Origin: Nematopogon swammerdamellus
Lineage: Eukaryota; Arthropoda; Insecta; Lepidoptera; Adelidae
NCBI GenBank assembly: GCA_946902875.1
Contig: OX336355.1
Coordinates: 15,285,347-15,349,346 of the forward strand
Length of the DNA: 64,000 nucleotides
Direction: 5' to 3'
The notes beneath the pieces are model-generated. The model had not been told where the DNA came from. It was given only the letters and a program-made list of their open reading frames with translations, and searched no databases. Below, in pieces: positions 43,437 to 44,086 of the stretch; within the stretch, counting starts at the first letter, position 1, and each line of letters opens with the position of its first letter. The translations under genes were made by a program, and so were the position numbers.

Positions 43437-44045
43437 ACTTCAGCTTTCAGCGCTTTCACAGCATGGGGCACAGCGCTCTACGGTCCGGGTAGGTCTAGGA
43501 ACACTGCGTCGGCCTTACTGACTAATTCTTCTAACACTGGCCTCCAATTTTCAGTGCTTTCACAGCATGGGGCACAGTAGTCCACGGTCCAGGTAGATCT
43601 AGGAACACTGCTTCTGCCTTACGGATTAATTCTTCTAACACCGACCTTCAGTTTTCAGCGCTTTCACAGCATGGGGCACAGTGGTCCACAGTCCGGGTAG
43701 GTCTAGGAACACTGTGTCGGCCTTACTGATTAATTCTTCTAACACTGACCTTCAGTTTTCAGTGCTTTCACAGCATGGGGCACAGCGATCCACGGTCCGG
43801 GTAGGTCTAGGAACAATGCATCGGCCTTACTGTTTAAGTCTTCTAACACTGACCTTCAGTTTTCAGCGCTTTCACAGCATGGGGCACAGCGGTCCACGGT
43901 CCGGGTAGGTATAGGAACACTGCGTCGGCCTTACTGTAAATTCTTCTAACACTGACCTTCAGTTTTCAGCGCTTTCACAGCATGGGGCACAGCGGTCCAC
44001 GGTCCAGGCAGGTCTAGGAACACCGCGTCGGCCTTACTGTTTAAT
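43437..44045 (-). repeat. Six-copy 104-bp tandem repeat of TRMT61A exon 4 (3' part plus donor)
   Basis: The landmark GCATGGGGCACAG lies at 43461, 43565, 43669, 43773, 43877 and 43980 (spacings 104, 104, 104, 104, 103). Each unit holds about 88 bp of exon 4 coding sequence (ADAVFLDLP...VKALK) and about 16 bp of the following intron, including the 5' splice site. The repeat junction coincides with GAAGAATTAA. The rightmost copy is the real exon. Downstream copies lack the true acceptor, and joining them from either phase reaches a stop quickly, so they are probably spliced out as intron. The donor is intact in copies 3 to 6 and altered in the two leftmost copies (GTTCAG; GCCAGT). Confidence 0.92.
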
Positions 44046-44086
44046 TCTTCACCAAAGCCGGAAGCACAGACGTCGCGATGTTGAAC
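43957..44086 (-). CDS. TRMT61A: TRMT61A exon 4, source of the 104-bp tandem repeat
   Basis: Acceptor TTAATGTACAG, then GTTCAACATCGCGACGTC, encoding [20 protein letters not shown] and [20 protein letters not shown], ending in GAAG with donor GTCAGTG. Its phase fits exon 3. Only this rightmost copy has the unique 5' part with the acceptor and RDVCASGFG, so it is the functional exon. Five further copies of its 3' part lie immediately downstream. Confidence 0.9.

Follow-up and report, generated by a model that had tools for sequence, protein, structure and literature searches.

Duplication of a segment that crosses an exon-intron edge is a known kind of event. In a described case of intron gain, according to the available part of its account, the duplicated segment crosses such an edge together with its splice signals, as it does here; there, part of the first intron was duplicated together with part of the second exon and a new intron was made, whereas in the TRMT61A array reported here the segment runs from exon into intron (the donor side), is present in six copies, and no new intron is evident. 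Novel intron positions that arose in Drosophila by intron sliding or tandem duplication (PMC2891723) resemble the present case, in the part of that paper available, as duplications of an insect exon-intron edge, but the intron position changed in those genes and that of TRMT61A appears ancestral. Tandem arrays in introns of protein-coding genes, with a link to splicing, are also found in human ABCA7 (PMC5954066) and in TERT (VNTR6-1, PMC11830802); the accessible portions of these two reports mention no repeat unit that combines an exon end with its donor, as the units of the TRMT61A array do. A literature search found no paper pairing TRMT61A with Lepidoptera, and searches for exon- or donor-bearing tandem arrays showed none of like anatomy among the papers listed, so that an example may still be in print. 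The boundary duplication was here repeated and its products apparently left behind; the array requires no new mechanism.

Tandem Repeats Finder reported positions 43428-44050 of the window (the whole 64-kb stretch of DNA analysed) as a tandem array of period 104, with 6.0 copies, 89% matches and a score of 1015. Six units of 103-104 bp each run head-to-tail from 44050 to 43428 on the minus strand (Table 1), one unit repeated head-to-tail being what defines a minisatellite or tandem array; all units are 104 nt long except unit 2 (103 nt). The self-identity of the region at lag 104 was 0.765, despite one 1-nt deletion, whereas 300 single-base shuffles, each examined at 100 lags, reached 0.328 at most. 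In each unit, the last 94 nt of exon 4 are followed by the 10 nt with which intron 4 opens (GTCAGTGTTA), and 36 nt of exon 4 precede unit 1. An earlier note on this DNA had assigned the repeat to exon 4 of TRMT61A, with a spacing of about 104 bp and the true acceptor in the first copy only; homologue matches and Tandem Repeats Finder bear out the gene, the exon and the spacing, and the true acceptor (TACAG/GTTC), directly before 44086, is indeed carried by copy 1 alone.

Table 1. Features of the window. Slashes mark splice junctions; on the minus strand the higher coordinate of a unit is its start.
Feature	Positions	Strand	Description and evidence
MED24	48738..51710	+	Divergent neighbour of TRMT61A, uninterrupted frame; Pfam Med24_N, 1214 bits
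TRMT61A exon 1	47696..47890	-	Start codon 47890; donor AAG/GTAATC; homologue tblastn, profile match 100 bits, splice site
TRMT61A exon 2	46852..47008	-	Donor CCG/GTGAGT; tblastn, profile, splice site
TRMT61A exon 3	45346..45488	-	GTGSGS motif; acceptor GGCAG/, donor ACT/GTGAGT; homologues, profile, splice sites
TRMT61A exon 4	43957..44086	-	130 nt; acceptor TACAG/GTTC; holds the exonic part of unit 1; homologues, profile
Array unit 1	43947..44050	-	Last 94 nt of exon 4 with the opening 10 nt of intron 4 (GTCAGTGTTA); donor GTCAGT
Array unit 2	43844..43946	-	103 nt; donor GTCAGT
Array unit 3	43740..43843	-	Donor GTCAGT
Array unit 4	43636..43739	-	Donor GTCGGT
Array unit 5	43532..43635	-	Donor altered to GCCAGT
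Array unit 6	43428..43531	-	Donor without GT (TTCAGT); TAG in place of a Trp codon
Sequence downstream of the array	1..43427	-	No TRMT61A exon 5 or later detected; C-terminal profile
Mariner-like element fragment	31945..32457	+	Mos1-type transposase helix-turn-helix domain (HTH_48)
Other minisatellite-like arrays	7845-8478, 9694-10675, 21238-21441, 33363-33543, 34010-34188, 38290-38669, 41156-41578, 52536-53184		Units of 21-244 bp

Exons 1-4 form 208 codons with no stop or frameshift, have GT-AG splice sites and are separated by introns of 687, 1363 and 1259 bp (calculated from the exon coordinates); exon 4 ends in phase 1. Both the N-terminal part of TRMT61A and the methyltransferase core, with its GTGSGS and FLD(L/I)P motifs, are present. 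Among the best 120 of 1523 homologues, insect TRMT61A proteins are 64-79% identical to the product of exons 1-4 (highest, 79%, Epargyreus clarus), and exons 3-4 matched PDB chain 5ccb_A, named TRMT61A, with E 8.9e-30. With an N-terminal profile, exons 1-4 scored 70-100 bits each and the extra copies 14-41 bits. The 3' end of exon 4 matches the point at which certain insect gene models stop or depart; some of these models read ...GK, an ending that fits a phase-1 G/GTAAG donor at the end of exon 4 and would support an ancestral position for this junction.

Four of the six donors keep GT, one reads GC and one lacks GT; the first three are identical (AAG/GTCAGT). The earlier note had described the two most distal donors as altered: the damage and the GCCAGT site stand, but its GTTCAG is the sixth site, TTCAGT, read one base early. 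Predicted pairing with U1 was -7.3 for donors 1-4, -5.2 for donor 5 and -1.3 for donor 6, the values for the donors of exons 1, 2 and 3 being -6.6, -10.2 and -6.6; the copy 1 donor, which is nearest to the true acceptor, pairs with U1 equally to donors 2-4. Use of any of donors 2-6 is predicted to end the protein at residue 211 (...EGQC stop), an in-frame TAG being formed where the 10 intronic bases meet the first base of the next unit; a single truncated form is predicted from the later donors. Internal CAG/TAAG sites are candidate acceptors for 80-nt pseudo-exons, the AG being lost in copy 5. Their upstream pyrimidine fraction is 0.35, compared with 0.47-0.59 for the true acceptors of exons 2-4, and any single 80-nt pseudo-exon would shift the frame and end the protein at residue 215 or 228. 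On account of these weak acceptors and of the frameshift, pseudo-exons from copies 2-6 were rejected; for the same reasons the sequence does not appear to fit intron gain by tandem duplication, in which both a novel donor and a novel acceptor come into use without loss of the frame. The variety of exon-skipped and frameshifted products once proposed for this locus found no support, donors 2-6 all reaching one TAG and the internal acceptors being purine-rich upstream. Putative effects of copy number on splicing are not favoured.

Any two copies are 6-16 differences apart over 104 positions, gap counted, and no neighbours are near-identical. Because of these differences we judge the array to be of old date and no product of duplication in the assembly, and the distance between all pairs, neighbours included, argues against a rapidly changing array. 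Relative to their own consensus, copies 2-6 carry in their exonic part 18 amino-acid-changing changes, one stop and seven synonymous changes (27% synonymous; the count omits the 1-nt gap of copy 2, and a variant common to two copies is counted twice), the neutral expectation being 25-31% synonymous, depending on transition bias. The copy 2 gap and unit position 11, at which the copies split 3-to-3, account for three of the amino-acid changes; in a recount of copies 2-6 without these three calls, there were 16 changing or stop and seven synonymous changes (30%). The pattern in copies 2-6 is close to neutral. The last exonic base together with the 10 intronic bases shows three changes in 55 sites, and the exonic part 26 in 465 sites; there is no sign that the donor stretch has been either preserved or purged, three events giving little power.

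In its exonic part, copy 1 departs from the consensus of the array at four positions. Three of these differences are synonymous, two being private to copy 1 and one common with copy 5; the fourth, which changes an amino acid, sets copies 1-3 against copies 4-6. One variant is shared by copies 4-6, another by copies 4 and 5, one by copies 3 and 5 and one by copies 1 and 5: the first two are as expected if each copy originated from its neighbour, but the last two do not fit a simple order. Copies 2-6 differ by about 11% on average. The rate estimated in Heliconius is reportedly expressed per site per generation; by this rate, copies 2-6 would be, as a rough figure, about 18-20 million generations old, with the proviso that rate and homogenisation may differ in this species. 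The estimate itself, in the part of the source available, is 2.9e-9 (PMC4271535).

In none of the six frames of the window was a match found to the C-terminal portion of TRMT61A, which in homologues extends from GRFCSFSPCIEQVQ to GHTGYLT: a profile of 109 homologues gave a single match (4.9 bits, E 7.7), which is not credible. From exon 5 onward the protein comprises about 125 residues, and 43.4 kb of the window lie downstream of exon 4. Because the C-terminal profile finds nothing credible and the window does not contain any N, there are two possibilities: a broken gene, or a distance of at least 43.4 kb between exon 4 and exon 5, making intron 4 longer than 43 kb. The complete gene that the earlier note implied was therefore not confirmed, and its statement that the array lies inside its own housekeeping gene is borne out for the intact exons 1-4 but not for exon 5 onward, which was not found in the window. 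Thirteen of the 120 fetched homologues are without the C-terminal FSPC motif, and several of these end or depart from the family at the end of exon 4 or within 1-2 residues of it (for example P0005, P0023, P0029, P0047 and P0049), which hints that intron 4 is awkward for gene prediction without showing it to be long. A number of insect TRMT61A entries stop just past exon 4, in the manner expected of read-through into intron 4 (P0005, P0049, P0050, P0075, P0088 and P0100); they may reflect annotation limits or real short isoforms.

We consider it fairly probable that a tandem duplication spanning the boundary was expanded to six copies, and that copies 2-6 were left as an intronic relic in a living gene. 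The segment across the exon 4/intron 4 boundary (94 nt + 10 nt) would have been duplicated in tandem and then expanded to six copies; the spliceosome would most likely join the exon that has the true acceptor through the first donor. With this choice of acceptor and donor, copies 2-6 would be intronic and therefore drift without constraint, copy 1 would stay a coding exon, and the gene would be expressed, with exon 5 past the window across a long intron. What is observed at the base of this reading is the array anatomy, the neutral-looking pattern of copies 2-6, the fact that donors 5 and 6 no longer have GT, and the one truncated product predicted from all later donors. The locus is a natural experiment on how a donor is chosen, in which one true acceptor is followed by three identical donors spaced by about 104 bp and then by damaged copies. 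If the gene is alive, a conserved gene has tolerated such an array for a long time.

The undetected C-terminal exon would also fit a TRMT61A gene broken by a rearrangement in which the 3' half was lost or moved, exons 1-4 and the array being a decaying 5' fragment. Exon 5 onward is absent over 43.4 kb, when introns 1-3 measure only 0.7-1.4 kb, and, of eight downstream open frames tested against Pfam, six were unmatched and one is a transposase fragment. Three of 92 conserved columns deviate in the window protein, compared with a mean of 1.3 for the 120 homologues; 16 of the 120 are as bad or worse, and three deviations are reached by only two of 28 homologues (27 from the lepidopteran part of the list and a caddisfly). 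In two protein trees of 16 species chosen from the homologue lists, drawn without support values, the window branches outside the 13 other Lepidoptera, on their side of the caddisfly; its source is likely to be a lepidopteran of an early branch. Its terminal branch is 0.218 for TRMT61A and 0.060 for MED24, and the ratio of the TRMT61A to the MED24 distance to the caddisfly is 1.35; Phthorimaea has 1.37, and the 12 remaining Lepidoptera have 0.78-1.03. As judged from this long branch and high ratio, TRMT61A has evolved fast in this lineage by comparison with MED24, and its constraint may be somewhat relaxed. However, at 0.604 the distance of TRMT61A from the caddisfly protein does not exceed those of the 13 other Lepidoptera (0.601-1.041), the 208 codons contain no stop or frameshift, the splice sites are GT-AG and three copy 1 changes are synonymous; a stretch of 625 nt freed from constraint for as long as copies 2-6 should, by our own scaling from those copies (26 changes, one stop, one indel), have gained about one stop and about one indel. 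A living gene with a long intron is favoured over a broken gene, which we regard as unlikely, if still to be taken seriously.

The repeated donors might instead compete or act as decoys, and so set the share of a truncated, decay-prone TRMT61A transcript. The equal predicted U1 pairing of donors 1-4 (-7.3) and the one stop after residue 211 reached from every later donor are in keeping with such a function, and intronic VNTRs can accompany altered splicing, for example in ABCA7 according to the accessible part of that report (PMC5954066); however, in copies 2-6 the donor bases have changed at about the pace of the other positions, and two of the five later donors lack GT, which renders a functional donor array improbable. 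Its stricter form, in which four donors of equal strength have persisted for millions of generations at the start of an intron of more than 43 kb and the share of later donors sets output via the premature stop, is less probable again. That a single exon 4 was falsely expanded in the one assembly on which the analysis is based is very improbable, as false expansion is expected to give near-identical copies and every pair differs at 6-16 of 104 positions.

The MED24 stretch listed in Table 1 is an in-frame query piece of an open frame that begins further upstream; it is 66-74% identical to MED24 of named Lepidoptera, the best match among those listed, an unnamed protein, reaching 76%. It was also observed that MED24 has here about 1000 codons in one uninterrupted frame, and that it is close to the caddisfly protein (0.446; other Lepidoptera 0.710-0.868), TRMT61A being not unusually close; the rates of the two neighbours differ. 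The contigs that carry TRMT61A and MED24 match in length in 13 of the 15 Lepidoptera found in both lists of 120 homologues (compared by eye; Pararge and Leptidea have no such match) and in the caddisfly Arctopsyche, a match of this kind being a sign of linkage and not of adjacency. Among the matches listed, they are on different contigs in Periplaneta, Anabrus, Bacillus rossius, Cephus and Gryllus. Because the two genes apparently share contigs in most of the Lepidoptera compared, the window probably contains the native TRMT61A locus; a dispersed duplicate of the gene is not favoured, given the apparent linkage in most species present in both lists. Outside the array, the exon 1-4 profile detected no copy of exon 4 in the window, and the FLD(I/L/V)P motif occurs once in 119 of the 120 fetched homologues, is absent in one and occurs twice in none; a wider family of exon 4 copies was rejected on these two grounds. 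In a scan of viral contigs for relatives, two stretches fitted a pattern and neither encodes a relative.

Eight of the 21 open frames of at least 120 codons that lie wholly below 43428 were tested against Pfam: one is a mariner-type transposase fragment, six were unmatched, and one resembles an OGG-like family at a score below threshold (16.9 bits against a cut-off of 27, E 0.0053). In the whole window, 11 tandem-array regions with units of at least 20 bp cover 4385 bases (6.9%), a figure that takes in the exon 4 array and two small arrays besides the eight others of Table 1. In such array-rich sequence, a tandem expansion that catches an exon edge is not very surprising.
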